Shown here: positions 11,833 through 63,084 of the stretch, in pieces
Position numbering within the stretch: the first letter of the stretch is position 1
Layout: every line of letters starts with the position of its first letter
Source of the DNA: Pseudomonas allokribbensis
GTDB lineage: Bacteria; Pseudomonadota; Gammaproteobacteria; Pseudomonadales; Pseudomonadaceae
DNA length: 64,000 nucleotides
NCBI RefSeq assembly: GCF_014863605.1
Contig: NZ_CP062252.1
Location: 2,737,001 to 2,801,000, forward strand
Direction: 5' to 3'
The notes under the pieces: model-generated
The model's database searches: none
Told to the model about the DNA's origin: nothing
The model's input: the letters and a program-made list of their open reading frames with translations, nothing else
Position numbers and translations under genes: made by a program

Positions 11833-11833
11833 T

Positions 11834-15129: not shown

Positions 15130-15151
15130 GGAGCAGCGTCCATCGCCAGCG

Positions 15152-47535: not shown

Positions 47536-47578
47536 GAAGGAGTGACCCTATGGACGAGGTGGAATGGTTGTTCCTTTC

Positions 47579-47628
47579 ATTGCCAGCCGAGATCAAAAAA
47601 AGTATCACCTGCGAGGTGATTTTTTTGC
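47579..47628 (-). promoter_or_regulatory. Promoter block shared with the receptor at 59266
   Basis: Read on the minus strand, TGATAC (47607-47602), a 16-bp spacer, then TGGCAA (47585-47580) lie 44 bp before the receptor ATG. GCAAAAAAAT (47628-47619) precedes them. The same elements, with the same 16-bp spacer, occur at 59170-59220 before the paralogous receptor. Likely an ECF-sigma promoter; which bases are the true -35/-10 is not certain. Confidence 0.55.
47595..47626. terminator. Terminator between fecR-like gene and receptor gene
   Basis: ATCACCT (47604-47610)-GCG-AGGTGAT (47614-47620), with A-rich and T-rich flanks on both sides. It ends fecR transcription and overlaps the putative receptor promoter. 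Confidence 0.75.
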
Positions 47629-48606: not shown

Positions 48607-49122
48607 TCATTCCACCAGCATCAGGCACTGCACGAAAGCCTGTTTCATGTAGCGCTTGACGGTGATCAGCGAGACGTCCAGCTGCTCGGCGATGTCGGCG
48701 TATTTCAAACCGCCGATCTGCGACAGCAGGAATGCGCGTTTGACCAGCGGCGGCAGGGTGTCGAGCATGGCGTCGATTTCGTGCAGGGTTTCCAGCACCA
48801 CGAAACGCAACTCGGGTGAGGGCGCTTCCGGCGCAGGCAAATGAGCGAGGGCATCAAGGTAGGCGCGCTCCAGTGCCTTGCGCTGATACCAGTTGATGAG
48901 GATGCCCTTCGCCACGCAACTCAGGTATGCCCGGGGCTGCTCGATGGTCGTGACCTGGGAGGCGAGGATCCGGGTGAAGGTATCCTGCGCCAGATCCGCC
49001 GCATCCATGGCGTTCCCCAGTTTTTTCTTCAGCGTGTTGTACAGCCAGCCGTGATGACCGCTGTACAGCGCTTCGATCACGCGCAGGTGGTTGTCGTTGT
49101 TCGCGGGAAGGGTTTCGCTCAT
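48607..49122 (-). CDS. FecI-like ECF sigma factor
   Basis: This 171-residue protein has sigma region 2 at about 20-85 (YSGHHGWLYNTLKKKLGNAMDAADLAQDTFTRIL, where DAADLAQDTF is the core-binding segment) and sigma region 4 at about 115-165 (LPPLVKRAFLLSQIGGLKYADIAEQLDVSLITVKRYMKQA). It is adjacent to fecR and the STN receptor, the standard cell-surface-signalling trio. ATG 49122 was chosen; the open frame extends into the promoter. A Fur-box-like dyad lies 18-36 bp upstream. Confidence 0.93.
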   Translation of the reverse strand: MSETLPANNDNHLRVIEALYSGHHGWLYNTLKKKLGNAMDAADLAQDTFTRILASQVTTIEQPRAYLSCVAKGILINWYQRKALERAYLDALAHLPAPEAPSPELRFVVLETLHEIDAMLDTLPPLVKRAFLLSQIGGLKYADIAEQLDVSLITVKRYMKQAFVQCLMLVE

Positions 49123-49139
49123 GGCTGCAGTGTTTTGCA

Positions 49140-49158
49140 ATTGAGAAGTATTCCCAAT
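49140..49158. promoter_or_regulatory. Putative Fur box upstream of the ECF sigma gene
   Basis: ATTGAGAAGTATTCCCAAT is a 19-bp imperfect palindrome with the A-A-T/T-T-C layout of Pseudomonas Fur sites controlling iron-starvation sigma factors. It lies 17 bp before the sigma start codon. Confidence 0.5.
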
Positions 49159-49206
49159 GCTAGTGTACAAAGAGCCCGCGACGCAAGCGCGAATCAGCAT
49201 CCGTTT

Positions 49207-50391
49207 TCAGGCGCGGGGCATTCTCAACAACGCGTTTACCATGGCGTCGATTTCGGCCTCGGTGTTGTAGGCGTGCAGCGATGCGCGACTGACTTCCAGC
49301 AGGTCCCGTTGCTGCATGTCGAGCATCGTCGAGCGGAAAGTCGAGGTGGTGACGTTGATGCGTTTTTCCTGCTTCGCCAGCCATGCCTGGACTTGCGCTG
49401 CACTGGCGGCCTGACAGGTGAATGTGACGATGCCGGACTTGACCGCGCCCCGATCCTGCGGCGTAACACCCGGCACATCGGTCAGGCGATTGCGCAGATG
49501 TGCCGACAATCGTTGAATGCGCTGCCACATCGGTTCGATGCCTTGCGCCAGCGCATAACGGGCCGCCGCGCCCATGCCCAGCTTCGCGGCGACGTTGCAT
49601 TCCCAGTTTTCGAAGCGCCGGGCATCTCCACGAATCCTGAAGGTGTCCGGGGTCAGCAATGAAGCCGCATGCAGGTCGAGAAACGCCGGTTCAAGGTTTT
49701 CGCACAAAGTCTTTTCGACGTAGAGAAACCCCATGCCCCGAGGGCCGCGAAGGTATTTGCGGCTGGTGGCGGCGAGCATGTGACAGCCGATTTTCTGCAC
49801 ATCGATCGGCATCTGCCCGACGCCCTGACAGGCATCCAGCAGAAACAGAACCCCGGCGGCGCGGGCGAGGGCGCCGATCTGTTCGATGGGCTGCACCGGG
49901 CCGCCGTTGGTGGCGATCACCGGCAGCGACACCAGGGCAACCCGGTCATCGCCGAGCATGTCCCGCAGCGCCGGCAATGACACCTGGCCCTGTTCATCGT
50001 TGGGAATGACCCTGATCTCGATCCCGCGCTGCTGCTTGAGTTGCAAATAGGGAATGTAGTTGCCGGCGTATTCGGTGGTCGACGTCAGCACCACATCGCC
50101 GGGCCGCAGCGGCAATGAATAGAAGGCCATGTCCCAGGCGCGGGTCGCGTTTTCAATGACCGCGATTTCTCCGGGCAGAGCGTTGATCAGTTGGCCGATG
50201 GCGTCGTAGACGTCTTCCACTTCCCGGGCCTGTTGCCCGGCGGCTTCATAGCCGCCGATCCGGGCCTCAAGTTGCAGGTGACGGGTCATCACTTCGATGA
50301 CCGGATCGGGCATCAGCGCCGCACCGGCATTGTTGAAGTGAATGAGTTGCTCGACACCCGGGGTGTCGGCGCGCAGTTGTTCAATGTTCAA
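49207..50391 (-). CDS. Class V aminotransferase (cysteine desulfurase/isopenicillin epimerase fold)
   Basis: 394 residues from a TTG at 50391 preceded by AAGGAG at 6 bp spacing; no ATG or GTG fits as well. A PLP fold-type I enzyme: NNAGAALMPDPV at 20-31, the cofactor Asp in LLDACQGVGQ (Asp186) and the Schiff-base Lys in ATSRKYLRGPRGMGFLYV (Lys212). It is last in the siderophore biosynthetic arm, 14 bp after the MFS gene. Neither the staphyloferrin B nor the Francisella rhizoferrin operon has a counterpart, so the reaction (transamination, beta-elimination or epimerisation of a siderophore amino acid) is open. Confidence 0.85.
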   Translation of the reverse strand: MNIEQLRADTPGVEQLIHFNNAGAALMPDPVIEVMTRHLQLEARIGGYEAAGQQAREVEDVYDAIGQLINALPGEIAVIENATRAWDMAFYSLPLRPGDVVLTSTTEYAGNYIPYLQLKQQRGIEIRVIPNDEQGQVSLPALRDMLGDDRVALVSLPVIATNGGPVQPIEQIGALARAAGVLFLLDACQGVGQMPIDVQKIGCHMLAATSRKYLRGPRGMGFLYVEKTLCENLEPAFLDLHAASLLTPDTFRIRGDARRFENWECNVAAKLGMGAAARYALAQGIEPMWQRIQRLSAHLRNRLTDVPGVTPQDRGAVKSGIVTFTCQAASAAQVQAWLAKQEKRINVTTSTFRSTMLDMQQRDLLEVSRASLHAYNTEAEIDAMVNALLRMPRA

Positions 50392-50405
50392 AGCAAACTC
50401 CTTGA

Positions 50406-51650
50406 TCAGTCGCCCGGCGGGATCTGGCTCGGTTGCATGACCATGGGCCGGTAGCGCAACGCAACGATGGGAATCAGCGCGAGGATGTAGGCGAGGCAGA
50501 CAAACAGGTAGGTGTACTGCAAACCGTAGACCTGGCTGAGCAGCCCACCGGCCGAGATGCCGGCGATGGACGCAAACTGTGCGGTGCTCTGGGCAATGCC
50601 CAGCACATAGCCCTGGCGTGAGCTGTCGGCGGTTTTGGAGATCAGCGCCATCAGTACCGGCGTCGTGGCGCCCAGCAATACGCCCCAGATGAAGTAGGCG
50701 CCGACGAATATGATCGGGTTGCGGGTGACGCCGGCGAGTGCTGTCAGCGCAATGCAGCCGAGGACGACATAAGTGATGCGTTGCAAGGTGTCCTGTTGGG
50801 TACGGTGTTCGAAGTAACGCGACCACGCGGTTGCCGACAGAATGAAACCCAGCGCCAGTAAGCCGTAGCACAGCCCGACCACCGAGTTGCTGACCTCGAA
50901 CACCGAGCTGACATACAGCGAGAACGACGTCTGCGGCAGCATCCGCGCCAGCAGCAAAATGCCCATGACGCCCAGCAGCGACAGCAGGGGCGTGCCTTGC
51001 CAGACGCTGGTGTTGTGGCTGACCGGAGCTTCTTTATCGGCAACCGGTGCTTTCTTCACTGGCGGCACGTCCGGCAATGTTACGGCCGCGACCACGGTGC
51101 AGATGGCGCACAGCACCGCCGCGATCATGTTGATCCAGAAGAACGTCGCGTAATCGAGGATCAGGCCGCCGACCACCGCGCCGAGCAACGAGCCGACGTT
51201 GGTGGAAATCTGCAGGATCGCGAACAGCCGCGCCCGGCGTGAAGGGGCCTCGATACTCACGCCATACGCCTGGGCCGGGGCGATGTAACCGGCGAAGGCG
51301 CCTTGCAGGAAGCGCAGGATCAGGATCACCCAGATGTCACTGCACAGGGCCAGCCCAAGCTGGGTCAATGACAGGCCGGCGAGGGCACGGATCATCATCA
51401 ACTTGTGGCCGTAGCGGTCGCCGATACGGCCCCAGAATGCACTGGTCAGAATAATGCCCAGCATCGGCCCGACGTAGACGGCGATGCTAGCGAAGCTGAA
51501 GAGCGAGTCCGAAGACGTTAGCCCACGCAGGTGGACAGGCCAGAACGGCCCGCTCATTTCCATCGCGCCCATCGAAATGAGCTGGATCGCGAACAGAAGA
51601 TAAATCAGGACTCTTACGCGCGAACCCGCGATGGCACCTGCATGGGTCAT
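50406..51650 (-). CDS. MFS exporter, probable siderophore efflux (SbnD/FslB-like)
   Basis: This 414-residue transporter has 12 predicted helices. MGAMEMSGPFWPVHL is in helix 1, FWGRIGDRYGHKLMMIRALAGL (the MFS loop 2-3 motif G-x-x-x-D-R-x-G-x-K) follows, and a long central loop is rich in Lys and Asp (PPVKKAPVADKEAPVS). It starts 13 bp after the NIS synthetase stop, in the same operon. NIS loci regularly carry such an exporter, so secretion of the product is the likely job. Confidence 0.87.
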   Translation of the reverse strand: MTHAGAIAGSRVRVLIYLLFAIQLISMGAMEMSGPFWPVHLRGLTSSDSLFSFASIAVYVGPMLGIILTSAFWGRIGDRYGHKLMMIRALAGLSLTQLGLALCSDIWVILILRFLQGAFAGYIAPAQAYGVSIEAPSRRARLFAILQISTNVGSLLGAVVGGLILDYATFFWINMIAAVLCAICTVVAAVTLPDVPPVKKAPVADKEAPVSHNTSVWQGTPLLSLLGVMGILLLARMLPQTSFSLYVSSVFEVSNSVVGLCYGLLALGFILSATAWSRYFEHRTQQDTLQRITYVVLGCIALTALAGVTRNPIIFVGAYFIWGVLLGATTPVLMALISKTADSSRQGYVLGIAQSTAQFASIAGISAGGLLSQVYGLQYTYLFVCLAYILALIPIVALRYRPMVMQPSQIPPGD

Positions 51651-51663
51651 GAGTCAGCCTCGG

Positions 51664-53517
51664 TTATTGAACGACATTGAGCGGGTTGGTCAGCGTGTGC
51701 TGAATCCGGTAGTTGGAGTACTGCATCATGTGCATGCGCAACAACGAACGGGTCGGCCACGGATCATTGAGGAAGGCCTTGCGTTCGACTTCCCACAGAT
51801 CCGGCGCGACACGCTCGCGCACCGCGGCAAAAGCCTGCTCGGTTTCTTCACGCAGAATGTCCCACATCCGATTGTTGTCCAGCGCGTACTCCTTGGTCAG
51901 CCACAAGGCCATTTCATGCAGATGCGTGAGGAACGCCGCGTCGAGCACGAACATGCGCACCGGCTCGATATCGCCTTCGAACACCGTTGGCAGAATGCCC
52001 GGCTGCACATGCGGTTGCAGGGTGTAGCCGCGTCCTTCCAGCAACGGAGCGTAGGTCCTGCCATCGCCGAAATCGCGGATCAGCAGACTACGTGCTTTGC
52101 CATCCGGGGAAAACAGCACCATCGTGTTCTGCTGGTGCGCCTCAAGCCCGATGCCGTACATCAAGTAGATTGCAATCACCGGATGGGTGACCACTTTGGC
52201 GTACTGACGGAACCAGTCTTCGACCTGGGCGGCATTGGCCCGAACGCCATCGCGCTCGATCAACTCGGTGAACAATGGCCGGCCGCTGCCCGGCAAGCGA
52301 GTGAACAGAGAAGCCACGGTGATCGGCAGACACTCGTCGGTACGCTCGAACGCTTGCTGACTGGCGCGGAACACCACCGACAGGTGACGGCCGGGGTGGT
52401 CATCCTGCGTGATCGCGTTCTTGTAGCGCACACCGATTTCTTCCGGGAAGATTTCCAGACGCTGCTCGAAACCATCCTCGACCTCGAGGATCTTCGTGAT
52501 GACGGTGCTGATGCGCGGGCCCATGTGGATCGACTTGGCCTGCAGGCTGCGCAGCTCGCTGGTCATCCACACGGCAATCGGCAACTTGATCAGTGGCGCG
52601 CTCTCCTTGAGTACCGGCATCATCGTGCGGTACGACATGGTCGGCAGGGTCTGGATGTCCGGGCCGTCTATGATGAGGATGCCTTCTGCGATTTCCGCCG
52701 CGAAGTTTTTCAGCACGTAAGCCTGCAAATGCCACGCGTGAATCGGCAGTGGCAACCATTGGGATTCGTCGAGGCCCTTGTCGTTCAGCGATGCTTTCCA
52801 TTGCTCCCATTGCGTCGGGAAATTGCTGGCGAACCAGGTGTGGTAATCGGTCACGTGGGGCATGCTTTCGCTTTTCGCCATGTCGGCCCGCAACGCGGCA
52901 ATGCGCAGCGGCACCTGGGCGTTGAACTCCGGCGACAGTTGCTCGACTTCTTCATCGCTCAGGCCCGGTCGGGCTTTCCACGTCGGATAATACGGGTGAC
53001 CTTCCAGCGAGCCCCACTGGTCGAGGAGGATCGCGGCGTCCTTGGTGCTGGCGTGCTGGCGCAGGTAATCGGTCAGGCTGTCGAGGCCCTGTTCCCGGGC
53101 GGCGGCAGCCAGTCGTGCGTTCCATTGCTGGCGATGCTGACGTGCGTGGGCGTCGTTCATCAGGCTGTTTTCCATGTCCGACTTGAGCCCGGCGATGCCT
53201 TCATCGGTCGGTTCGAAATCGAAGCTGTCGCGCAGCACATCCAACAGGTCCTGATGGGTGTAGATCACCTGGCGCACGCCTTCATCGGTCATCAGGATCA
53301 CGTCGCCGTCATTGACCACGGTGTCCGCCGGGCCCTTGGCGATGTTGGAAAAGAACACTTGGGAACGGCCGTCTTTCAGCGCGTACGTGGCCTCGTTGCC
53401 GGCTGCGGAGAAGCGCAGGCCCGAGCGATCCAGAATGTTTTCGGCAAACAGGCAACGGATCATCCGTCGCAGGGCGTTCTTGCGGGAGTAGGCGATGAGT
53501 GTCTTGAAGTCATCCAT
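51664..53517 (-). CDS. IucA/IucC family siderophore synthetase (NIS synthetase)
   Basis: The protein has 617 residues. Family motifs in order: EGHPYYPTWKARPG (172-185, ATP-binding region), KLPIAVWMTSELRSLQ (311-326), GLEAHQQNTMV (457-467) and RDFGDGRTYAPL (481-492). The enzyme adenylates a carboxylate, usually citrate, and condenses it with an amine. It is the only NIS synthetase in the window; staphyloferrin B needs three, rhizoferrin one. Genes for a Dap pathway and a decarboxylase are upstream in the same operon, so the amine is probably L-2,3-diaminopropionate or a derived compound. Substrate type is inferred from context. Confidence 0.93.
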   Translation of the reverse strand: MDDFKTLIAYSRKNALRRMIRCLFAENILDRSGLRFSAAGNEATYALKDGRSQVFFSNIAKGPADTVVNDGDVILMTDEGVRQVIYTHQDLLDVLRDSFDFEPTDEGIAGLKSDMENSLMNDAHARQHRQQWNARLAAAAREQGLDSLTDYLRQHASTKDAAILLDQWGSLEGHPYYPTWKARPGLSDEEVEQLSPEFNAQVPLRIAALRADMAKSESMPHVTDYHTWFASNFPTQWEQWKASLNDKGLDESQWLPLPIHAWHLQAYVLKNFAAEIAEGILIIDGPDIQTLPTMSYRTMMPVLKESAPLIKLPIAVWMTSELRSLQAKSIHMGPRISTVITKILEVEDGFEQRLEIFPEEIGVRYKNAITQDDHPGRHLSVVFRASQQAFERTDECLPITVASLFTRLPGSGRPLFTELIERDGVRANAAQVEDWFRQYAKVVTHPVIAIYLMYGIGLEAHQQNTMVLFSPDGKARSLLIRDFGDGRTYAPLLEGRGYTLQPHVQPGILPTVFEGDIEPVRMFVLDAAFLTHLHEMALWLTKEYALDNNRMWDILREETEQAFAAVRERVAPDLWEVERKAFLNDPWPTRSLLRMHMMQYSNYRIQHTLTNPLNVVQ

Positions 53518-53562
53518 ATCAGCTATCTGCTCGTCGAGAAATTAATGAAGTGTTGAACCCGC

Positions 53563-54711
53563 TCACGCCGTGCGCGGCCATTGGCTGGGGAAGTAGTCGA
53601 GCGCCGAGTCGCGCAGGCCCTGCATGTAGGAAACGCTCCATTGCAGGACTTCTTCGATGTAGGGGACTTTCAGTTCGAAGCGCCGGGCCATTTCCACCAG
53701 CAGCACCAGGCCGTAGGCGACGTCTTCATTGAAGGCGCGGCTTTCACGTTCGATCACGTAGCCGGCGCGGTTGTCATCGGCTGGAATCATCGGGGCGAGG
53801 ATGTCGTTGTAGGCCTGGTTGGTGCGCAGGATCGACAGCATGCTGCTCTGATCGCGGATCTGCTCGCCGTAGGCCTCGACGATTTCCTGCTTGAGGGATT
53901 TGACCGACGACAGGTCGATGCCCATGCGCTGGCTGATCACGCTGCACAGTTCCTGACTTTCCTGATCCATGCGTTCGAGGAAATAGGCGCCCAGCTCGGG
54001 GCACTCGGTCCACCAGCACATGCGCTGCGGGAAGATCTTGCGGTGCCACTGGCCGTAGGGACCGATCAACCCGTAAATCACCGAGCTGTGCATGATCGGA
54101 TTGCCCGGTGTCAGGGTGATTTCCAGGTAGTGGTCGAGCATCGTCACGCAGGGGCCATAGAGCGTCGTGAGGATTTCTTCCAGGTGCTGCCGTGATTGCG
54201 CTGATTCCCGGTCGTGCAGCGCGACATACAACTGGCTCTTGCCGCCGCCCATCTTCACCGACACGCCCGGCTTCAGATCGAACGCGGTGTGCGGCACATC
54301 CTTCATGCCCCAGATCACCACGTTCGAACGTTCGCCCAACGTGGCTTCCGCCAGCCAGTCGAAGCCGCAGAAACCCGGAATGGCGCCGACGTACACCGGT
54401 TTGCCCGAACTCAAATGCGGCGCGATGGCTTGCAGGGTTTGTGGTCGGGCATGGGCCGGAACCGTGATGATCACGATGTCGGCGTCGGCCACCACGACAC
54501 TGGCATCGGTGCTGACCTGATCCGGCCGGGCGCTCAGTGTCGAGCCGTCCGGCATCAGCGCCTGCATCGGCAGGTTGGCGAGGTGCCGGTCGACCACCTC
54601 CTTGTTGTTGGTGAGCATCGAGACCTGAACATTGGGCAGCTGTTTAAACAGGATGGCATTCAGGTGCCCGGTCCGGCCTGCGCCGCAGATGGCGACTTTC
54701 AGCGGTTTCAT
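53563..54711 (-). CDS. Opine (octopine/nopaline) dehydrogenase family protein, putative SbnB replacement
   Basis: The protein has 382 residues. An N-terminal Rossmann domain (VAICGAGRTGHLNAILF, GxGxxG at 10-15) leads to the octopine-dehydrogenase C-terminal domain with LEITLTPGNPIMHSSVIYG, where the Asn-Pro-x-x-His core corresponds to the catalytic His region. Opine dehydrogenases join or cleave an amino acid and a 2-oxoacid using NAD(P)H. SbnB cleaves ACEGA, itself an opine-like secondary amine, into Dap and 2-oxoglutarate. Placed next to an SbnA homologue, this protein could do the same from a different family. It sits between SbnA-like and NIS genes. Confidence 0.85.
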   Translation of the reverse strand: MKPLKVAICGAGRTGHLNAILFKQLPNVQVSMLTNNKEVVDRHLANLPMQALMPDGSTLSARPDQVSTDASVVVADADIVIITVPAHARPQTLQAIAPHLSSGKPVYVGAIPGFCGFDWLAEATLGERSNVVIWGMKDVPHTAFDLKPGVSVKMGGGKSQLYVALHDRESAQSRQHLEEILTTLYGPCVTMLDHYLEITLTPGNPIMHSSVIYGLIGPYGQWHRKIFPQRMCWWTECPELGAYFLERMDQESQELCSVISQRMGIDLSSVKSLKQEIVEAYGEQIRDQSSMLSILRTNQAYNDILAPMIPADDNRAGYVIERESRAFNEDVAYGLVLLVEMARRFELKVPYIEEVLQWSVSYMQGLRDSALDYFPSQWPRTA

Positions 54712-54739
54712 ACAGAGACTTTCCTGTGTGGGAGACGCG

Positions 54740-55783
54740 TCAGGCGACGCTCAATTGCAGGGGAGTGGCGTCGGATTCCAGCCAGCGGGTCTTGCCCAGC
54801 CAGCGATCCAGTTGCGGTGCGACGCCCGGGTCCAGCAGGTCCCGTTCTTCCAGCCAGTTGTCGTCGAATACGGTGTGCAGGTATTTCTCGCCGCCGTCGG
54901 CAATCGGCACCACGACGTTGCCGGTCAACGTGCCTTTGTGAATCAGCTCCAGCGCCTTGAAAATCGCGCCACCAGTCGAGCCGCCGACCAACAGAGCCAG
55001 ATTGCGCGCGATGTAGCGGGCGGTTTCGAAGGCCTGTGAATCGGTGACTTGCAAGCCCAGGTCGATGCAGCTGTAGTCGAGCACCAGGCCGACGGTGTCA
55101 CCGGCCGGGGTGCCGGTGCCGGACTGGTAATACGGATAGCCGGGATGACCGAAGACGATGGAACCGGCCGGCTCGACGGCCACTGTCACGATATCCGGGT
55201 TGTGCAGTTTCAGACCGCGGGCGATGCCGGTCATCGAGCCGCCAGTGCCGACGCAACCGACGTACGCGCCGATGTGGCCACCGGCCTGGGCAATGGTTTC
55301 ACGGACGAAATCGCTGTAGCCGCCGGCGTTGGCAGCGTTGTCCGACTGGTTCATGAACACCGCGCCGGGGATCTGCGAGGCGAGTTCGGCGGCCAGCCGT
55401 TGACGCTCGACCACGGCCACTTCGTCTTCCCGGTAAGTGCCGGCGACAAAACGGATTTCGGCCCCCAGTGCCTTCATCACTGCGATCTTGTCCTGCGCCG
55501 CATGGTGATCGACCACGGCAATGAAATGCAGGTCGAACTCAACGGCTGCCATGGCCAGGCCGATGCCGGTATTGCCGGAAGACGATTCAACGACCACGCC
55601 ACCGGGTTTCAACTTTCCGGACTTGAGCGCCGCCAATACCATGTTTCGCGCCATACGGTCTTTAATACTGCCGCCGGGGTTGTTCTTCTCTATCTTGAGC
55701 AAAAGTCGGGCGTTGGTATCCGGAACATCAATGCCCAACATTGGTGTATTGCCAATAAGATCCGAAACTTTATTCAGTATCAT
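54740..55783 (-). CDS. SbnA-like PLP enzyme (putative N-(2-amino-2-carboxyethyl)-L-glutamate synthase)
   Basis: This 347-residue cysteine-synthase-fold enzyme has the PLP Lys in NPGGSIKDR (Lys41), the SSGNTG substrate loop at 68-73 and a CVGTGGSMTG phosphate cradle near 188. It differs from CysK/CysM in the usual way of SbnA, including the opening LNKVSDLIGNTPMLGID. SbnA joins O-phospho-L-serine to glutamate, giving ACEGA, the precursor of L-Dap. The gene is 14 bp after the decarboxylase and 28 bp before the opine-dehydrogenase-like gene. Assignment as SbnA rather than CysK rests mainly on context. Confidence 0.85.
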   Translation of the reverse strand: MILNKVSDLIGNTPMLGIDVPDTNARLLLKIEKNNPGGSIKDRMARNMVLAALKSGKLKPGGVVVESSSGNTGIGLAMAAVEFDLHFIAVVDHHAAQDKIAVMKALGAEIRFVAGTYREDEVAVVERQRLAAELASQIPGAVFMNQSDNAANAGGYSDFVRETIAQAGGHIGAYVGCVGTGGSMTGIARGLKLHNPDIVTVAVEPAGSIVFGHPGYPYYQSGTGTPAGDTVGLVLDYSCIDLGLQVTDSQAFETARYIARNLALLVGGSTGGAIFKALELIHKGTLTGNVVVPIADGGEKYLHTVFDDNWLEERDLLDPGVAPQLDRWLGKTRWLESDATPLQLSVA

Positions 55784-55797
55784 CTGGACGTCTTCCT

Positions 55798-57192
55798 TTA
55801 ATAGTCAGGTGTGAATGCGTAGTTACCTTCCGTACAACATGTCGCCATCAGTCGCCGTGGCAGCGGGTGGCGATGGAATTCGTTTTCCAGCAAGTCCATC
55901 TGATAACCGGCGGTGTTGGCGTAGATCAATAAGTCGCCGGCTTGTGGTGGTGTATCGAAGTTGATCAGGCGATGAGTGATCACGTCATCATCGAGACAAC
56001 TATGCCCGGCGATGTGGGCTTGCATTGGAGCAAGTTTCGACTCTTTCGAAGTGATCAATATTGGATCGACAAGGTATTCAGATGAGAACCATGTTTCGCA
56101 CGCGCTGAAACTGCTACCTTCGGCGAAGATCACAACTTTGTTGTCGGTCAGTTGTTTTGTGCGGGTTACGCGAAAGACGGTGATGGCGGCCTGGTCAACC
56201 AGACTTCGGCCAGGCTCCAGTGCCAGTTTTATATTCTGAGTTTTCAAGTAGCTCGCAATGGTTTTTCCCGGGGAGTGATCTGACTCCAGAAATAACTCCA
56301 GCCACTGGCAAGCCGTCAGACTGCTGCCATAAGGGTAATAAGAGTCGGGCACTCGACGATTCTGATAATGACCAGGATTGTTGTCGTTCTGCAAAAAGCT
56401 GTTGTAGTCCTGCGGGTCTACATACCGCATCGGCAGGCCACCACCGATATCGATCATGACCGGGTCGAGGCCCATTTCCCTTGCCGCATCGATGAAGCCG
56501 GTGACTTCACGGAAAGCCTGTACCCGGGTTTCGTAACCGTAACCGCCGAGGTGGAAATGGAAACCTTCGAAGTGGAACGACTCACGTTGTTCGATCAGGT
56601 ATTGCAGGCACTGAAACAAATCATCCGCACCCATTCCGAATCGGCTCGCCGGGCAACTTGTCGGCCTGTAACGCAGCAGGATCCGGGCTTTGGCCGGTGG
56701 TTGCGAAGTGTCGAGCAATGCTTTGAGATGGCTGAACTCTTCCAGTGAGTCCACACAAATCAGCGATCCGCCTTGCACCAGTGCGTTATGAAACGCTGCC
56801 GTTTTGGCCGGCCCGGTCGCACACAGATGTTCCGCCGGGGTTCCGGCGCGCAGTGCCGCTTGCAGCTCAAAGAGGCTCGACACGTCGGTGCCGATGCCCG
56901 ACGCCGATGCCGCAGCCAGCAGGCATTGTGACTTGTTGGCTTTGGCACCGTAGAAAATCGCGTAGTCGACGTCGTGTCGTTTCAACACCGATTGCAGCGC
57001 TTGAGCATTGGCTTCAAACGCATGCGGCCACACCAGGTTCAGTGGGGATCCGTGTTGTTTAACAAGTTCGGCAAGTGCTTTCGGAGAATGTTTAAGAAAG
57101 TTATCGATAACAGGATCAAGTAACGGTTTCAGCACTTTTGGGTATTGGGTTTCGATTGTTTTTTTAACTGTCGGCGCAATTAATTCAGGCAT
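55798..57192 (-). CDS. PLP-dependent Orn/DAP/Arg decarboxylase family (SbnH/FslC-like)
   Basis: This 464-residue alanine-racemase-fold (type III) decarboxylase has the PLP Lys in YGAKANKSQ (Lys84), the FHFHLGGYGYETRVQA His segment and DIGGGLPMRY, and a C-terminal beta domain with SCLDDDVITHRLINFD, where Cys-x-x-Asp binds the substrate. SbnH decarboxylates citryl-Dap in staphyloferrin B synthesis; FslC acts in Francisella rhizoferrin synthesis. It is the first gene of the leftward biosynthetic operon. It either makes the amine or decarboxylates the citryl-amino-acid intermediate. Confidence 0.9.
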   Translation of the reverse strand: MPELIAPTVKKTIETQYPKVLKPLLDPVIDNFLKHSPKALAELVKQHGSPLNLVWPHAFEANAQALQSVLKRHDVDYAIFYGAKANKSQCLLAAASASGIGTDVSSLFELQAALRAGTPAEHLCATGPAKTAAFHNALVQGGSLICVDSLEEFSHLKALLDTSQPPAKARILLRYRPTSCPASRFGMGADDLFQCLQYLIEQRESFHFEGFHFHLGGYGYETRVQAFREVTGFIDAAREMGLDPVMIDIGGGLPMRYVDPQDYNSFLQNDNNPGHYQNRRVPDSYYPYGSSLTACQWLELFLESDHSPGKTIASYLKTQNIKLALEPGRSLVDQAAITVFRVTRTKQLTDNKVVIFAEGSSFSACETWFSSEYLVDPILITSKESKLAPMQAHIAGHSCLDDDVITHRLINFDTPPQAGDLLIYANTAGYQMDLLENEFHRHPLPRRLMATCCTEGNYAFTPDY

Positions 57193-57408
57193 AGAAAACC
57201 TCTGGCGTCGATAATCGCCATGTGCAGGTCGACAACTAATGTTTGTCGAGTCGTGTGTTCTTGCTGCTCGTCAGATACGAGTGTTTAAAGAGGTGGAGGC
57301 GGATGACAGATCCGCTCCGCAAATGAACTCGGGGTATTTTCTTTCATAAAATTTTCACAAAACTGTTTCATGAGAACCCCACTCCTTAAGGCTCAGGCAG
57401 GCAAGGAT

Positions 57409-57440
57409 AAGGCCAATAACTGATGGCCTTGTCTCTTTTG
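57409..57440 (+). terminator. Possible terminator in the divergent control region
   Basis: AAGGCCA (57409-57415)-8 nt-TGGCCTT (57424-57430), then GTCTCTTTT. No plus-strand gene precedes it, so it might end a small RNA or a leader transcript. Weak evidence. Confidence 0.35.
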
Positions 57441-57554
57441 AAGTGCCATTACCTGGCATGTAAATGACATCATTGCGCCGAACTTTTCGTGAACAAAATT
57501 TCAGGTCTTGATTTGAGTCTTGACCCTGTCAGCGGCTCGAACAATATTGCGAAC

Positions 57555-57573
57555 AGGAATGATTATCAAGTAA
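57555..57573. promoter_or_regulatory. Putative Fur box in the siderophore divergent region
   Basis: AGGAATGATTATCAAGTAA contains AATGATTATCA, matching 10 of 11 positions of the Fur core AATGATAATCA; the flanks fit poorly. The position between the two biosynthetic arms is suitable for iron control of both. Confidence 0.4.
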
Positions 57574-57801
57574 GGTTTTCAAATATTTTTGAATGAACAC
57601 ACACAACAGGGGAGTGCGAAGCCGCTTATTCGCATGCTCAAGTAAGCGCTCGCGTGTTGATTTTAAAAACCGTCAACGCCTTGTTATTCAAGGTGTTGGC
57701 GGTTGATTCAAGACACCCGGATGCAACCTGGTTTTCCCCCTGTAACAGGTGTTCGAATTTTTTTGAAAACCCACGACTGAAGCACGCTCAGGAGAGTCCC
57801 G

Positions 57802-58689
57802 ATGACCGTTCGTCACAGCACCAACGCCACGCTTCCCATCAGCTACCTGTTCGTTCCCGGCAACCGGCCGGAGCGCTTTTCCAAAGCGGTCGAAGCCGGG
57901 CCGGATGCGATCATTCTCGACCTCGAAGATGCTGTTCATCCGAACAGCAAAGCCGTGGCCCGGGCGTCGATCTGGGCCTGGCAGCAGAGCACGCCCGAAA
58001 CGGCCTGCCAGCGTTACATCCGACTGAATAGCGTCGGCAGTTCGCTGTTTCGCCAGGACATGACCTGGCTGGGTGACATGCGCTATCCCGAGCGCTGCGC
58101 AGGGATTTTCCTGCCCAAGGCCGAATGTCCAGAGAGCCTCTCTCGTGTGGTCGAACGCCTGCTGGCGTGGAACCCCGACCTGCAAATCGTCGCCATCATC
58201 GAGACCGCCAAAGGCTTGCATCAGGTCGAGGCAATTGCGGCGATTCCCGGTTTGGCACGGCTGGCATTCGGTTCGCTGGATTTCTCCCTGGACATCGATT
58301 GCAGCCAGATTCCCGAGGCGTTTCTGTTCGCTCGCAATCGCATCGTGCTGGCGTCGCGCGTCGCCAGTTTGCCTGCACCGATCGATGGCGTGACCCCGGC
58401 CATCAGCGACATGGCGGTGGTCGAGCGCGACTCGCGTTACGCCCGGTCGCTGGGGTTCGGCGCCAAGTTGTGTATCCATCCTTCGCAAATCGCCACGGTG
58501 CAGAAAGCCTACCTGCCCAACGCCCGCCAACTGGCGTGGGCGGATCGGGTCCTTAACGCCGTGGCCGGGGGCAGCCACGCGGTGCAAGTCGACGGTGAAA
58601 TGGTCGATCTGCCGCTGATCGAGCAGGCGCAACGCCTGCGGGACATGGCCAGCCAGTACGCGCTGGTCGCCAACGCGGATGCTTGCTGA
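57802..58689 (+). CDS. CitE-like HpcH/HpaI aldolase/citrate lyase family protein
   Basis: The protein has 295 residues. YLFVPGNRPERFSKAVEAGPDAIILDLEDAVHPNSKAVAR is the CitE N-terminus, with Glu/Asp of DLEDAV binding Mg. AIIETAKGLHQVEAIAAIPGLARLAFGSLDFSLDI carries the second acidic ligands, and GAKLCIHPSQI is conserved. CitE-like proteins make or cleave citryl-, malyl- or citramalyl-CoA-type esters. In the staphyloferrin B operon SbnG, of the same superfamily, makes citrate from oxaloacetate and acetyl-CoA. I infer a parallel role here. ATG 57802 follows GGAGAG; the SbnI-like gene starts 15 bp after. Confidence 0.87.
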   Translation: MTVRHSTNATLPISYLFVPGNRPERFSKAVEAGPDAIILDLEDAVHPNSKAVARASIWAWQQSTPETACQRYIRLNSVGSSLFRQDMTWLGDMRYPERCAGIFLPKAECPESLSRVVERLLAWNPDLQIVAIIETAKGLHQVEAIAAIPGLARLAFGSLDFSLDIDCSQIPEAFLFARNRIVLASRVASLPAPIDGVTPAISDMAVVERDSRYARSLGFGAKLCIHPSQIATVQKAYLPNARQLAWADRVLNAVAGGSHAVQVDGEMVDLPLIEQAQRLRDMASQYALVANADAC

Positions 58690-58704
58690 AACGGGGGACG
58701 CATC

Positions 58705-59106
58705 ATGGGACATGGTTACCAGATTGCCCTGCGGCCACTGTGCGACGTGCGGCAATCCGAGCAGGTCGATCCGCTCAACGTGCAGCGGCTGCGCGAGGCG
58801 ATCATCCAGGCCGGGCACTGGCTGGAACCGATCATCGTCGAGCGCTCCCGGGGCATCGTGATGGACGGCAATCACCGGTTCAACGCGGCGCGGGCGCTGG
58901 GGTTGAAACGGGTGCCGTGCATCCAGCTCGACTACGCCGATCCGCGAGTCTGTGTACGGCACTGGCAAACCGGGCAGGCGTTCGAAGTGGCGCGGATATT
59001 CACCACCATCGAGCGCGGCGAACTGTTCCCGTACAAGACCACCCGGCACGCGTTCGACCCCGCGCTGCCGATGATCTCCATTCCGCTGCAATGCCTGTAC
59101 GACTGA
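58705..59106 (+). CDS. ParB/Srx-fold protein, short SbnI/SerK-like putative L-serine kinase
   Basis: The protein has 133 residues. EPIIVERSRGIVMDGNHRFNAARALGLKRVPC (41-72) contains the D-G-N/H-H-R motif of the ParB/sulfiredoxin fold, and GELFPYKTTRHAF (105-117) resembles the (F)PxKTTRH segment of SerK/SbnI. SbnI makes O-phosphoserine from serine for SbnA and also regulates the sbn operon. This protein is about half the size of SbnI (254) and has no C-terminal extension. I infer that it supplies O-phosphoserine to the SbnA-like enzyme; kinase activity is not shown. Confidence 0.75.
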   Translation: MGHGYQIALRPLCDVRQSEQVDPLNVQRLREAIIQAGHWLEPIIVERSRGIVMDGNHRFNAARALGLKRVPCIQLDYADPRVCVRHWQTGQAFEVARIFTTIERGELFPYKTTRHAFDPALPMISIPLQCLYD

Positions 59107-59113
59107 CCGGCGT

Positions 59114-59143
59114 CGGAGGGTGGGCTTCGCAGCCCATCCTCCG
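59114..59143 (+). terminator. Strong hairpin between the SbnI-like and receptor genes
   Basis: A 12-bp stem, CGGAGGGTGGGC/GCCCATCCTCCG, with loop TTCGCA, 7 bp after the SbnI-like stop. Only a weak T-tract follows, so it may be a leaky terminator or mRNA stabiliser. Confidence 0.6.
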
Positions 59144-59169
59144 GACGTTCTCTTCCGAGCCATCCGCTC

Positions 59170-59220
59170 GCAAAAAAATATTCAACGACGCTGATACTTT
59201 TTCGATTGTCGACTGGCAAA
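59170..59220 (+). promoter_or_regulatory. Promoter block shared with the receptor at 45118
   Basis: GCAAAAAAAT, then TGATAC (59192-59197), a 16-bp spacer and TGGCAA (59214-59219), 46 bp before the receptor ATG. The same elements and spacing occur upstream of the STN receptor gene. A Fur-like sequence, GCAAATAGGAGTCATTACC (59216-59234), overlaps its end. Confidence 0.55.
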
Positions 59221-59265
59221 TAGGAGTCATTACCATTTCAGTCATTCGAGAAGGACCCCATCGTC

Positions 59266-61470
59266 ATGTCTGTTGCACGTCGACCTTGCAGTGAACGCGC
59301 GTTAACGCTGGCTATTCGCACCGCCATGCTGAGTTCTATTCTGGCCGCAGGAAGCGCCACTGTCTGGGCAGCAGACCCCAAGCAATCCGAGCAACAGGAC
59401 GTCGCCGCCACGGAAGGGCTGACGCTGGATACCACCAACGTTACGGGCAGCTACAACGGCGCGACTGCCTTGCCGGAAGTGCTCGCCGGAGGCCAGGTCG
59501 CCCGAGGCGCAAGGCTGGGGATGATGGGCAACAAGGATGTGATGGACACGCCGTTCAGCGTGACCAGCTACACCGTCAAGACCCTCGCCGATCTGCAAAC
59601 GGTGACCGTGGCCGATGCGCTGGAACGCGACCCTTCGGTACGCTCCACCGGGCAGACCGGCGGCATCGTCGATTCGTTTTTCATCCGCGGATTTGCAATA
59701 GGCGAGGGCAACCTCGGCGAGCTGGCCTACGACGGTGTGTACGGCGTAGCGCCCAACTATCGGGTGTTTACCGAATACGCCGAACGCGTTGAAGTGCTCA
59801 AAGGGCCGGGCGCGCTGATGTACGGCATTTCCCCCAACAGCGGCGTCGGCGGCGTGATCAACATCGTGCCCAAGCGGCCACTGGACGAAGACCTGACCCG
59901 CTTCACCGGCACTTATGCTTCCGACTCGCAAGTGGGCGGGCATCTGGACGTCAGTCGGCGTTTCGGCAGCGAGAACCAGTTTGGCATCCGCTTCAACGGC
60001 AGTACCCAGGGCGGCGACACCGCGATCAACGATCAGGAACGCGCGCTGAACATCGGCGCCATCGCACTCGATTACAAGGGCGAGCGCTTGCGCCTGAACC
60101 TGGATTACATCAGCCAGAAAGAGAGCTTCGACGCGGCCTCGCGACCGTTCACCATTGCACCGGGTGTGAAGGTTCCATCGGCGCCGAACGGCCGCACCAA
60201 CCTGCCGCAGGACTGGGGCTGGTCGGACACCAAGGAGCAGTCGGCATTGCTCGGCGGCGAGTATGACCTCAACGATAACCTGACCGTGTTCGCCCACGCC
60301 GGCGGCGGTCGCTCCGACGTCAAGCGCATGTCCGACCAGGTACCGCGAATCCTCAACGACGCCGGCGACACCAGCAACATTCCCGGTTACTACAAATTCA
60401 ACGTCGACCGTTCGACGGCTGACGTGGGGATGCGTGCACTGTTCGCCACCGGCCCGGTCACCCACACGACCACGGTCATGGCGACCCGTTATCAGGACGA
60501 ATTGTCCCGTGGCATCAACAACGGCACGGAAATCCGCTCGAACATCTATCACCCGGTAGACGTGCCCAAGCAGTACATCAGCTCGCCGAAAGTGCTGCGC
60601 ATTTCCGAATCGGAACTGTCTGGCGTCGCACTGACCGATACCCTCGGCTTTCTCGATGACCGGATTCAGTTGACCCTCGGCGTACGCCGACAGGACATCG
60701 AATCGCGTAACTACAACGCCTCGGGCTCGGTCAGTTCTCGTTATGACGACAGCGCGACCACACCGCTGGCGGGCGTGGTGGTCAAACCATGGGAAGACGT
60801 TTCGCTGTACTACAACTACGTCGAAGGCCTGAGCAAAGGTGATATCGCTCCAGGCACCGCAGCCAACTCCGGCGAAACGTTCGCCCCTTACAAGTCCAAG
60901 CAACATGAAATCGGTGTGAAGTACGAACACGGTACGTTCATGACGACTCTGGCCCTGTTCCAGATCGAGAAACCGAGTGGCGAAATCGGCGCCGGCAATG
61001 TGTTCTCGGTGCAGGCCGAACAACGTAACCGTGGCGTCGAGTTGAGCATGTTCGGTGAAGTCGCGCCGGGCACTCGCCTGATGGGCGGCGTGACCTTGCT
61101 GGACGGCGAACTGACGGACTCGGCCACCGCCGCCAACCGTGGCAACAAACCGGTGGGCGTGCCGGATGTCCAGGCCAACCTTTGGGCCGAGTGGGACACA
61201 CCGTGGGTCGAAGGTTTCACCCTGACCGGCGGCGCGATCTACACCGACAGCCAATACGTCAATCAGGCCAACACCCAGGAGCTGCCATCCTGGACCCGCA
61301 TCGACGCCGGCGCTCGCTACGCCACCAAGATCGAAGGTCGGCCGACGACGTTCCGCGCCACGGTGCAGAACGTGTTTGATCGTGAGTACTGGTCAGGTGT
61401 GGCGTCCTACGGCGCGTTCTCCCCGGGCTATCCACGCACGTTGCAGTTGTCGGCGACCGTCGACTTCTGA
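59266..61470 (+). CDS. TonB-dependent siderophore receptor without STN domain
   Basis: The protein has 734 residues: signal about 1-34 (ending VWA), plug about 95-215 (SVRSTGQTGGIVDSFFIRGF; EVLKGPGALMYGISPNSGVGGVINIVPKR), then a barrel ending LQLSATVDF. It is closely similar from plug to C-terminus to the receptor at 45118, but the N-terminal signalling domain is absent. It should import the ferric siderophore without sending a FecR signal. Together with the CitE-like and SbnI-like genes it forms the rightward arm, though the hairpin at 59114 and its own promoter block suggest separate expression. Confidence 0.93.
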   Translation: MSVARRPCSERALTLAIRTAMLSSILAAGSATVWAADPKQSEQQDVAATEGLTLDTTNVTGSYNGATALPEVLAGGQVARGARLGMMGNKDVMDTPFSVTSYTVKTLADLQTVTVADALERDPSVRSTGQTGGIVDSFFIRGFAIGEGNLGELAYDGVYGVAPNYRVFTEYAERVEVLKGPGALMYGISPNSGVGGVINIVPKRPLDEDLTRFTGTYASDSQVGGHLDVSRRFGSENQFGIRFNGSTQGGDTAINDQERALNIGAIALDYKGERLRLNLDYISQKESFDAASRPFTIAPGVKVPSAPNGRTNLPQDWGWSDTKEQSALLGGEYDLNDNLTVFAHAGGGRSDVKRMSDQVPRILNDAGDTSNIPGYYKFNVDRSTADVGMRALFATGPVTHTTTVMATRYQDELSRGINNGTEIRSNIYHPVDVPKQYISSPKVLRISESELSGVALTDTLGFLDDRIQLTLGVRRQDIESRNYNASGSVSSRYDDSATTPLAGVVVKPWEDVSLYYNYVEGLSKGDIAPGTAANSGETFAPYKSKQHEIGVKYEHGTFMTTLALFQIEKPSGEIGAGNVFSVQAEQRNRGVELSMFGEVAPGTRLMGGVTLLDGELTDSATAANRGNKPVGVPDVQANLWAEWDTPWVEGFTLTGGAIYTDSQYVNQANTQELPSWTRIDAGARYATKIEGRPTTFRATVQNVFDREYWSGVASYGAFSPGYPRTLQLSATVDF

Positions 61471-61475
61471 TCGGG

Positions 61476-61503
61476 GGCGCACTGCTGAGTGCGCCTTCTT
61501 CTA
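61476..61503 (+). terminator. Terminator after the receptor gene
   Basis: GGCGCACT-GCTG-AGTGCGCC perfect 8-bp stem followed by TTCTTCT, 6 bp after the stop codon. Confidence 0.85.
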
Positions 61504-61547
61504 TATAGAGCTACGCACAGCGGCTGATCATAAAAAGGAGTATTCGC

Positions 61548-61925
61548 ATGTTAACCAGCCCGGCATCGACGTCCTCTGGCAAGCAATTGCAGTTTTCGTT
61601 GGCGAAGGGGCAGCGGGCCTTCGATTTCGAGCGCAGCACCAATGAGCATATCCGTGAGCTGCTGCATTATTACGGGCTGCGCACCAGTCTGATCCGGATC
61701 AAAGTGATCGATGCCTTGCTGGTTGCAGCACGCGAAGGACGCGCCGTTGGCGGGCGCGGGGTGCATGGGTATCTGCAGGCGTTTGTCAGCGGCATTCAGT
61801 TCATCAGCGTCAGGGAAGTGCTCAAGCGTTTGTGCGAGGAGGGCGTCATCGTGTTTCAGCCTGACAAGAGCTACCGGTTTACCGGCGAAGCCTACACCTT
61901 GCTGGAGCAGCATGCCGACCGCTGA
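61548..61925 (+). CDS. Fur-like winged-helix regulator, apparently DNA-binding domain only
   Basis: The protein has 125 residues, with ATG 61548 after AAAAGGAG. HIRELLHYYGLRTSLIRIKVIDALLVAA, then FISVREVLKRLCEEGVIVFQPDKSYRF (about 85-111), has the helix and wing pattern of Fur-family DNA-binding domains. The His/Cys-rich metal-binding and dimerisation half is missing, and the insertion GRAVGGRGVHGYLQAF is unusual. It may be a local iron or siderophore regulator with a different sensing mode. A generic winged-helix protein is the alternative. Confidence 0.6.
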   Translation: MLTSPASTSSGKQLQFSLAKGQRAFDFERSTNEHIRELLHYYGLRTSLIRIKVIDALLVAAREGRAVGGRGVHGYLQAFVSGIQFISVREVLKRLCEEGVIVFQPDKSYRFTGEAYTLLEQHADR

Positions 61926-61950
61926 ATGACTGCGTTTGCTGTCCTGATCA

Positions 61951-61978
61951 AAACCACCTGCTCGCGGGTGGTTTTTTC
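61951..61978. terminator. Terminator after the Fur-like gene
   Basis: AACCACC(TG)-CTCG-(CG)GGTGGTT stem with T6 after it, about 27 bp past the stop codon. The only other content of 61926-62127 is AT-rich benR upstream sequence. Confidence 0.85.
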
Positions 61979-62127
61979 GTTTGGGGCCGTCAATCCCGAT
62001 TCGATGAAAGCGTTCGATCACCGGACAGCCAAACCTTCGTCCAATTGCCCACCCCGACACTCCGGCGTACTGTGACCGGTGAACCACCCGTGATCACACA
62101 ATAAATAGAAGATCGAGTGCCTTGCCC

Positions 62128-63084
62128 ATGGACAACCGCCTGCTGAGCGACCGCAGCAGCGTGTTTCGCCACGCTGACCCGTATGCCGTCTCCGACTATG
62201 TGAACCAGCACGTCGGTCAGCATTTCATCGGCCTGTCCCGGACTACCCATCCGCAAGCCAGCCTCAACCACCGCAAACTCGCCGACCTCGATCTGTGTCG
62301 TATCAGCTATGGCGGCAGCGTTCGCGTCACTTCGGTGGCGCTGGAAACGGTCTATCACCTGCAAGTCCTGCTGCAAGGCAACTGTCTGTGGCGCGGGCCC
62401 AAGCGCGAGCATCATCTGGTGCCGGGCGAATTGTTGTTGATCAACCCGGACGATCCGGTCGACCTGACCTATTCCGACGATTGCGAGAAATTCATCCTCA
62501 AGGTGCCGGTCAGCGTGCTGGAGTCGGTGTGCGACGAGCAGCGCTGGTTGCATCCTGCCGGTGGCATCCGGTTTCTGCGCAATCATTACCGGCTCGACGA
62601 ACTGGAAGGTTTTACCAACCTGCTCGGCATGATCTGCCAGGAAGCCGAAGCCAGCGATCCGTTGCTGCGGGTGCAGGAGCATTACGCGCAGATCGTCGGC
62701 AGCAAACTGATCTCGCTGATGAACACCAACGTCAGCCGTGAATGCCTGAGTTCACCGAGCGTCAGTTTCGAGCGAATCCTCGACTATATAGAGCGCAACC
62801 TGAAACAGGATCTGCCTGCCGAGCACCTGGCCACACAGGCGAACATGAGCCTGCGCTCACTCTACGTCTTGTTCGAACGCCAGCTTGGCGTGACCCCGAT
62901 GCAATACATCCGCCAGCGCAAGCTGGAACGTATTCATGCCTGCCTCAGCGATCCGAATTGCCCGGTGCGCAACCTCACCGAACTGGCGCTGGACTACGGC
63001 TTCCTGCACCTCGGGCGTTTCTCCGAAAGCTATCGCCAGCAGTTCGGCGAACTGCCGTCCGTGACCTTCAAACGCCGCCACTGA
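62128..63084 (+). CDS. benR: AraC/XylS-family regulator of benzoate degradation
   Basis: The protein has 318 residues; ATG 62128 is preferred over a TTG two codons earlier. The N-terminal ligand/dimer domain (about 1-200) is of the XylS/BenR type (ETVYHLQVLLQGNCLWRG; VPGELLLINPDDPVDLTYSDDCEKFILKVP). The C-terminal double HTH (about 215-318) contains LPAEHLATQANMSLRSLYVLFERQLGVTPMQYIRQRKLERI. It binds benzoate and activates benABCD. benA follows on the same strand after 141 bp that carry two matching binding repeats. Confidence 0.92.
   Translation: MDNRLLSDRSSVFRHADPYAVSDYVNQHVGQHFIGLSRTTHPQASLNHRKLADLDLCRISYGGSVRVTSVALETVYHLQVLLQGNCLWRGPKREHHLVPGELLLINPDDPVDLTYSDDCEKFILKVPVSVLESVCDEQRWLHPAGGIRFLRNHYRLDELEGFTNLLGMICQEAEASDPLLRVQEHYAQIVGSKLISLMNTNVSRECLSSPSVSFERILDYIERNLKQDLPAEHLATQANMSLRSLYVLFERQLGVTPMQYIRQRKLERIHACLSDPNCPVRNLTELALDYGFLHLGRFSESYRQQFGELPSVTFKRRH

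Follow-up and report, generated by a model that had tools for sequence, protein, structure and literature searches.

Which siderophore is made by a gene cluster with a single synthetase of the nonribosomal peptide synthetase (NRPS)-independent siderophore (NIS) class? The question is raised by a locus in a 64,000-nt stretch of the Pseudomonas allokribbensis genome (NZ_CP062252.1, 2,737,001-2,801,000, forward strand), hereafter the window, in which all coordinates are given. To judge from sequence comparison, the locus quite probably makes, exports and re-imports a rhizobactin-type aminopolycarboxylate siderophore by means of a cluster of the proteobactin/y4x type, and the Pseudomonas product is most likely rhizobactin B with some rhizobactin. 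A preliminary description of the locus was mostly right about its anatomy and probably wrong about its product, given as a siderophore derived from citrate and diaminopropionate (Dap).

Protein families were assigned with Pfam and NCBIfam models (cut-offs as given per model), and solved protein chains were compared besides. The gene set is real, intact and conserved. A leftward operon on the reverse strand encodes a decarboxylase, an SbnA-like enzyme, an opine dehydrogenase, the NIS synthetase, a major facilitator superfamily (MFS) exporter and a class V aminotransferase, and continues into genes for FecI, FecR and a TonB receptor with an STN domain (45118-49200), a continuation overlooked in the preliminary description. 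The divergent rightward arm carries CitE-like, SerK-like and TonB receptor genes. All frames are open, and the families named earlier for the genes of both arms were matched, with the exception of a supposed Fur-like gene treated below. The synthetase had been described as the only one, and indeed a single IucA_IucC match, the window synthetase itself, was found in the whole 6.57 Mb genome (one contig), so no partner synthetase was found elsewhere in it.

Rhizobactin was described in 1985 and rhizobactin B in 2020, and the genes for neither appear to have been pinned down before, the only pointer found in the accessible literature being one to rhbAB. Among the matches listed from the open-access literature, a search that left subscription papers mostly outside, no title or abstract opening assigns the present cluster to rhizobactin. 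Pseudomonas sp. FEN was reported to secrete rhizobactin, which comprises ethylenediamine, alanine, lysine and malic acid, and rhizobactin B, with citramalic in place of malic acid (PMC7676072). Iron-isotope profiling of this strain revealed these two related iron ligands, pyoverdine was not detected, and FEN took up iron with rhizobactin B (PMC7676072). The reported ions are C15H27N3O8 at m/z 378.1866 and C16H29N3O8 at m/z 392.2020 (PMC7676072). Combining lysine, alanine, a two-carbon bridge and malate or citramalate gives the same formulae, with computed [M+H]+ values of 378.1871 and 392.2027.

The FEN genome (accession CAJFDC010000000; PMC7849696) carries the cluster at one locus (L069, NZ_CAJFDC010000013.1), and this contig holds the sole NIS match of the draft genome, which is 99% complete. 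Identity between FEN and the window is 73-92% for the decarboxylase, SbnA-like enzyme, opine dehydrogenase, synthetase, exporter, SerK-like and CitE-like proteins, with 84% for the synthetase; the class V aminotransferase is 79% identical. The cluster of FEN and the masses of its siderophores fit rhizobactin or rhizobactin B better than a citrate-plus-Dap product, and thereby offer a named compound where the preliminary description could match none. Rhizobactin originally came from Sinorhizobium meliloti DM4 (PMC7676072), and the core cluster was found on an accessory plasmid of S. meliloti USDA1021, another strain than the producer DM4. Further S. meliloti plasmid records match the opine dehydrogenase. 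The "rhizobactin" of another report cites rhizobactin 1021 of strain 2011, a hydroxamate (PMC12815270).

The bonds of the compound can be matched to enzyme types of the cluster: the amide would be the work of the NIS synthetase, the N-carboxyethyl amine that of the opine dehydrogenase, and the ethylene bridge that of the SbnA-like enzyme with the decarboxylase. Every reaction of the route is one that we infer; the genes, their families, their conservation and their co-occurrence with the compounds in FEN are observed. A SerK-like kinase (58705..59106, forward strand) would convert serine to O-phosphoserine, and the SbnA-like enzyme (54740..55783, reverse strand) would join the three-carbon skeleton of O-phosphoserine to the alpha-amine of lysine. 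The decarboxylase (55798..57192, reverse strand) would then strip the Dap carboxyl, leaving an N2-(2-aminoethyl) group as the ethylenediamine bridge on lysine. Decarboxylation would have to precede the opine step, because a pyridoxal phosphate (PLP) decarboxylase requires a free primary amine. The opine dehydrogenase (53563..54711, reverse strand) would reductively couple the aminoethyl amine with pyruvate to form the 1-carboxyethyl (alanine) unit. The CitE-like enzyme (57802..58689, forward strand) would supply citramalate from acetyl-CoA and pyruvate, or malate from glyoxylate, and the single synthetase (51664..53517, reverse strand) would amidate lysine N6 with either acid. Export by the MFS protein (50406..51650, reverse strand), TonB-dependent uptake and FecI/FecR surface signalling would complete the cycle. 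The preliminary description had proposed a self-contained Dap supply; enzymes of that sort do occur here, but the opine dehydrogenase probably makes something other than free Dap.

The families of these proteins are consistent with such roles. The decarboxylase has the alanine-racemase fold (PF02784/PF00278), its top-scoring solved chains are diaminopimelate decarboxylases, and the name Y4yA is taken from annotated plasmid relatives. The SbnA-like enzyme has the PALP/cysteine-synthase fold of beta-replacement enzymes and reaches 221 bits with the SbnA model (TIGR03945, cut-off 350), so a different amine partner would suit it; it is the most conserved of the eight proteins compared (92% identical in FEN, 70-71% in Proteus, NGR234 and S. 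meliloti). The synthetase combines the IucA/IucC and FhuF families (PF04183 and PF06276), with rhizoferrin FslA as its best NCBIfam model (281 bits, cut-off 1000). The exporter (PF07690) is nearest to the FslB/rhizoferrin-export type, its best NCBIfam match (176 bits, below the cut-off of 600). The opine dehydrogenase belongs to the Octopine_DH family (PF02317, 97.7 bits) and aligns to octopine dehydrogenase 3c7a over residues 4-360. Its H208 and D330, both at least 98% conserved across the window and 107 relatives, fall on H212 and D329 of that enzyme, which we take to be the catalytic pair. The carboxyethyl groups made by octopine-type enzymes are D-configured, and D-alanine is said to be part of rhizobactin.

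The SerK-like protein is compact (133 aa), about half the length of SbnI and SerK, and yet aligns to both parts of free serine kinase. It shows a weak ParB_N match below cut-off and 25 bits with the SbnI model (cut-off 350), and it matches solved chains of free serine kinase and SbnI. E19, D54-G55-x-H57-R58 and K111-T-T-R-H115 are kept in nearly all relatives, the glutamate being presumably the catalytic glutamate of SbnI, and the structure model is confident (pLDDT 95.7).

The CitE-like protein, of the HpcH/HpaI acyl-CoA lyase fold, scores higher with the NCBIfam RipC model (169.9 bits) than with CitE (116.1 bits), both under their cut-offs. The solved chains that match it best carry the name acyl-CoA lyase beta chain, and human CLYBL (5vxc/5vxo) is another match. 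A characterised relative was reported to act on citramalyl-CoA and malyl-CoA, not on citryl-CoA, and to have thioesterase and weak malate synthase activities (PMC6689899). The CitE-like protein is therefore a plausible source of citramalate or malate, not a citrate synthase of the SbnG type, and action on citramalyl- or malyl-CoA would be in line with the citramalate of rhizobactin B. The amide of rhizobactin B sits at the carbonyl beside the CH2 in the reported NMR table (PMC7676072), and these CH2-carbonyl carbons are the pair that acetyl-CoA would give.

To reveal the distribution of the cluster, relatives were sought with the opine dehydrogenase as bait. Within the genus, 19 of 298 genomes gave a match, as did 3 of 398 drawn from the phylum (the own genome counted in both) and 46 plasmid records, mostly rhizobial; the three weakest plasmid matches (23-30% identity) and H63 (37%) look like other opine dehydrogenases. 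In named genomes 96 places were detected, and the 80 best of them were analysed for the presence of genes within about 10 kb of the bait, or up to a nearer contig end. The synthetase was found at all 80 loci, the exporter at 79 (L055 ends early), the decarboxylase and the SbnA-like enzyme at 79 each (L097 starts inside the bait), and the SerK-like gene at 74, the six loci without it all being betaproteobacterial. Chance does not explain the clustering: at all 80 of the named loci the core genes stand together, the only exceptions being contig ends and genes whose presence differs from group to group. Further synthetases beside relatives of the window synthetase, which the preliminary description had named as a finding that would count against it, were not seen: each of 107 loci has one synthetase place (some genomes are duplicated).

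The synthetase is 50% identical to that of Proteus (L130) and 49% to that of NGR234 (L027) over nearly its full length. Among the 60 matches listed of 1819 plasmid records, two were relatives at 49-50% and the other 58 were at 23-29% identity over 26-79% of the protein. Because of this difference the cluster is a member of the proteobactin/y4x group, and the core of that group (NIS synthetase, Y4yA decarboxylase, SbnA-like enzyme, opine dehydrogenase and MFS exporter side by side) is present in the window. The hybrid of the preliminary description is thus one form of a widespread family. Its sbn-like chemistry with a single synthetase stood, with SbnB and SbnG replaced by the opine dehydrogenase and the CitE-like protein; its status as a one-off did not.

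Several observations were made on plasmid copies and on more distant bait matches. The Serratia plasmid locus also has CitE-like and class V aminotransferase genes; at 6094-7062 of this Serratia marcescens plasmid locus (L028), the beginning of the decarboxylase frame as listed is overlapped by an IS903B-like element, and the frame, shorter than those of relatives, is possibly disrupted. In Sinorhizobium meliloti and Bradyrhizobium (L023, L024) the cluster lies on plasmids typed as conjugative, so it may spread. The 37%-identical opine dehydrogenase (H63) lies at 12001-13212 of the Rhizobium sp. 007 plasmid locus L031 in a phosphonate-type neighbourhood with aepX, a cytidylyltransferase and aminotransferases, and is perhaps a different natural-product use of the family.

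The CitE-like gene is the variable that may set the acyl group. It was found at 33 of the 80 loci, namely in 23/23 Pseudomonas, 9/9 Enterobacterales, 1/30 alphaproteobacterial (Bosea) and 0/18 betaproteobacterial loci, absence being judged only within about 10 kb per side (shorter for L094, L097, L113 and L124) and not genome-wide. The chances are about even for a more general scheme, in which a widespread opine-plus-NIS route leads to aminopolycarboxylate siderophores: the SbnA-like enzyme and decarboxylase would bridge lysine, the opine dehydrogenase would cap it, and one synthetase would add a hydroxy-diacid set by the CitE-like gene (citramalate if present, malate if absent). Proteobactin would on this scheme resemble rhizobactin B, and rhizobactin itself would be made by the y4x clusters of rhizobia. 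The role of the CitE-like gene in this scheme draws on two producers and the gene distribution, and the tree tests are suggestive.

CitE labels need two changes on the NIS tree and three on the trees of the opine dehydrogenase, SbnA-like enzyme, decarboxylase and exporter (the NIS and MFS trees being quick trees), and the Bosea row (L096) moves between trees. In approximately unbiased (AU) tests, a single clade of CitE rows was not rejected for the synthetase (p 0.45), decarboxylase (p 0.23) or SbnA-like enzyme (p 0.09); a grouping of the alphaproteobacteria with Bosea gave p 0.07 for the synthetase and was likewise not rejected for the decarboxylase (p 0.20) and the SbnA-like enzyme (p 0.29). 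In Bosea sp. Tri-44 (L096), whose alphaproteobacterial cluster is rearranged and includes a CitE-like gene, the synthetase is placed near the gammaproteobacterial ones and the decarboxylase with Thalassospira; neither placement is secure by AU test.

Some results speak against the proposed product and route. The tracking of the synthetase tree by the CitE-like gene is suggestive and not statistically secure, and one row runs counter to it: Cupriavidus L085, without a CitE-like gene, groups with the rows that have one. Oxidative hydrolysis would be an equally possible activity of the opine dehydrogenase, and the proposed route leaves the class V aminotransferase without a task. In the stretch examined of FEN (L069) there is no separate copy of the right-arm receptor, only the STN receptor, as also in P. 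batumici (L063) and L070. The authors of the FEN study drew attention to homologues of rhbAB, deferring the biosynthesis to later work (PMC7676072); rhbAB are genes of the structurally different hydroxamate rhizobactin 1021 (PMC7676072), and one of the FEN homologues, annotated as a diaminopimelate decarboxylase, could be the decarboxylase of this cluster. NRPS condensation domains gave 31 matches in FEN and 36 in the window genome, and because FEN has so many the link between cluster and compound is a correlation in one genome.

These NRPS matches and the single-genome correlation are what favours a very unlikely explanation, that FEN makes rhizobactin from another locus and the cluster makes another compound, such as a citryl analogue (m/z 436.193). 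The sole NIS gene found in FEN lies in the orthologous cluster, however, the enzyme types fit the structure bond by bond, and the iron-isotope profile of FEN was accounted for by rhizobactin and rhizobactin B (PMC7676072). A citrate-Dap siderophore is also unlikely. In that case the SbnA-like enzyme and the opine dehydrogenase, replacing SbnB, would free Dap, and the synthetase would join citrate to Dap or decarboxylated Dap, for example as dicitryl-ethylenediamine. The SbnA-like, SerK/SbnI-like and decarboxylase families are present, an octopine-type dehydrogenase is chemically capable of the SbnB reaction, and FslA is the best synthetase model, far below its cut-off as this is; but all matching sbn and fsl NCBIfam models are under cut-off, and SbnB and SbnG are not among the names of the solved chains listed. 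Furthermore, the predicted masses (409.109 and 453.099) are not among the reported FEN iron-binding pairs, which were assigned to rhizobactins (PMC7676072).

It is highly improbable that the product is mainly a carrier of zinc or another divalent metal, like the opine metallophores staphylopine and pseudopaline. The receptors of TonB siderophore type, the FecIR signalling and the NIS enzyme fit iron, FEN took up iron with rhizobactin B (PMC7676072), and a family of the nicotianamine-synthase type was not found among the 15 proteins scanned, against the presence of an opine dehydrogenase in a metallophore cluster and the mention in the FEN paper of chelating other metals such as Zn (PMC7676072). 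A NIS-linked opine dehydrogenase was not encountered in the accessible part of a zincophore survey (PMC7438024).

The genes for a FecI-type extracytoplasmic function sigma factor (48607..49200; Sigma70_r2/r4_2), a FecR-type anti-sigma regulator (47629..48606; PF04773) and a TonB receptor with STN, Plug and barrel domains (45118..47535) lie on the reverse strand. The FecI gene starts 6 bases beyond the class V aminotransferase gene and was found at 22 of the 23 Pseudomonas loci (L055 being a contig end). The right-arm receptor (59266..61470, forward strand; TIGR01783 379.8 bits, cut-off 223.5) has no STN domain and is 71% identical to the STN receptor over its own residues 52-734; the pair is a duplication, with one copy having the signalling domain and the other being without it.

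The divergent intergenic region (57193..57801) contains a weak Fur-like site at 57549-57567 with 12/19 consensus matches, no better than shuffles (0.515 of 200 reach 12), so the window by itself does not support a Fur box. At 21 of 23 Pseudomonas loci, scored without shuffles, one of the two best sites ends in GATTATC or its counterpart, and 20 of these 21 sites lie at an offset of 234-273 and are positionally conserved; in FEN, P. batumici and P. moorei the match rises to 15/19. In the window, 12/19 is also reached at 59216 and 61526, where 0.035 and 0.030 of 200 shuffles do as well, without correction for the seven regions tried.

The gene at 61548-61925 (forward strand) had been called Fur-like, an identity that was dropped: Pfam gives no Fur match even at E<=1 and no match over cut-off, no family was assigned to this small protein, and it is patchy among Pseudomonas relatives of the cluster (14-row alignment). 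It has a conserved VREVL-RL core; a winged-helix regulator is possible, unproven. Adjoining the cluster is an AraC-family regulator gene (62122..63084, forward strand; PF12833 and PF14525), present in few relatives within the stretches examined.

The class V aminotransferase-fold PLP enzyme (PF00266) appears to be accessory. Its gene (49207..50391, reverse strand) likely starts with TTG at 50391, a few bases after AAGGAG, and ends at 49207. It was found at 20 of 23 Pseudomonas loci (L055 cut, L070 and L074 without it) and 23 of 80 overall, and not at the Proteus and Pectobacterium loci or at 45 of 48 alpha- and betaproteobacterial loci, so it is not needed for the core. No ABC transporter or substrate-binding protein was found among the proteins scanned in 45118-63084; the NGR234 gene listing is also without one, so such a gene is not universal in proteobactin/y4x-type clusters.

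If true, the proposed assignment would supply genes for two orphan compounds, rhizobactin and rhizobactin B, and give orphan genes their compound. A product would be gained for the single-synthetase clusters of Pseudomonas, Pectobacterium, Proteus and legume symbionts, and the equation of the CitE-like gene with citramalate would be a prediction spanning many strains.

The preliminary description had suggested a comparison of the gene set across Pseudomonas and with curated clusters; 23 Pseudomonas loci have the cluster, and the cut-offs of the staphyloferrin B and rhizoferrin models were missed. Staphyloferrin B (sbnA-I) shares the SbnA-like and SbnI-like functions, an alanine-racemase-fold decarboxylase and an MFS protein, but has three NIS genes, whereas the window genome has one, and the window has the opine dehydrogenase instead of SbnB and the CitE/RipC-like protein instead of SbnG. 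The rhizoferrin clusters of Francisella (fslABC/figABC) share one NIS gene, an FslB-like MFS protein and a decarboxylase, to which the window adds the SbnA-like, opine dehydrogenase and SerK-like genes; in addition to the FslA and FslB scores, FslC reaches 27 bits against 500. Membership of either group was rejected on gene count and family cut-offs. The rhizoferrin enzymes FigA and FigC were reported to yield no siderophore from Dap (PMC7857480), and an sbn-like cluster of Methylobacterium has two NIS genes and is not of the window type (PMC9301485). In the accessible part of a P. viridiflava survey, NI-siderophore appears in only one of the gene cluster families with a reference match (achromobactin), and the family of the window cluster is not recognisable there (PMC13387001).

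Closer likenesses are found among single-synthetase clusters. The preliminary description had named a published cluster of identical content with a known product as grounds for its refutation; proteobactin largely provides such a cluster, its content being nearly the same (PMC11026637), although no structure of its product, nor any product of the y4x/y4y cluster, was found in the accessible literature. According to a 2024 review, the Proteus mirabilis cluster (pbtABCDEFGHI) comprises genes for a citrate-lyase-beta-like protein, a single NIS synthetase, a decarboxylase, a PLP enzyme, an octopine/opine dehydrogenase, a TonB receptor and an MFS protein, and besides these for a binding protein, ABC proteins and a hypothetical protein; the review places PbtA together with Sinorhizobium Y4xN among the type B synthetases (PMC11026637). 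The first seven of these have counterparts in the window, the PLP enzyme being SbnA-like, and a SerK-like gene was found at the Proteus locus (L130) in the present comparison. Proteus differs in its added ABC and substrate-binding proteins, in gene order, and in that the class V aminotransferase and FecIR are unmatched in the stretch examined.

Rhizobactin and rhizobactin B are known as compounds, from FEN and DM4, and the window strain from genes alone; for every type of bond in the compounds, the window cluster encodes a fitting type of enzyme. In NGR234 the core cluster (L027, pNGR234a, 9192-16237) lies amid type III secretion and nodulation genes (nopX, nopL) on the symbiotic plasmid, and a second opine-dehydrogenase match (H41) is on the other megaplasmid. 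The y4x/y4y cluster of Sinorhizobium fredii NGR234 and rhizobial plasmids differs from the window in that the CitE-like and aminotransferase genes are unmatched in the stretch examined. It has SerK-like, Y4yA, SbnA-like, opine dehydrogenase, NIS and MFS genes in that order, the last five of which, from Y4yA to MFS, follow the order of the window.

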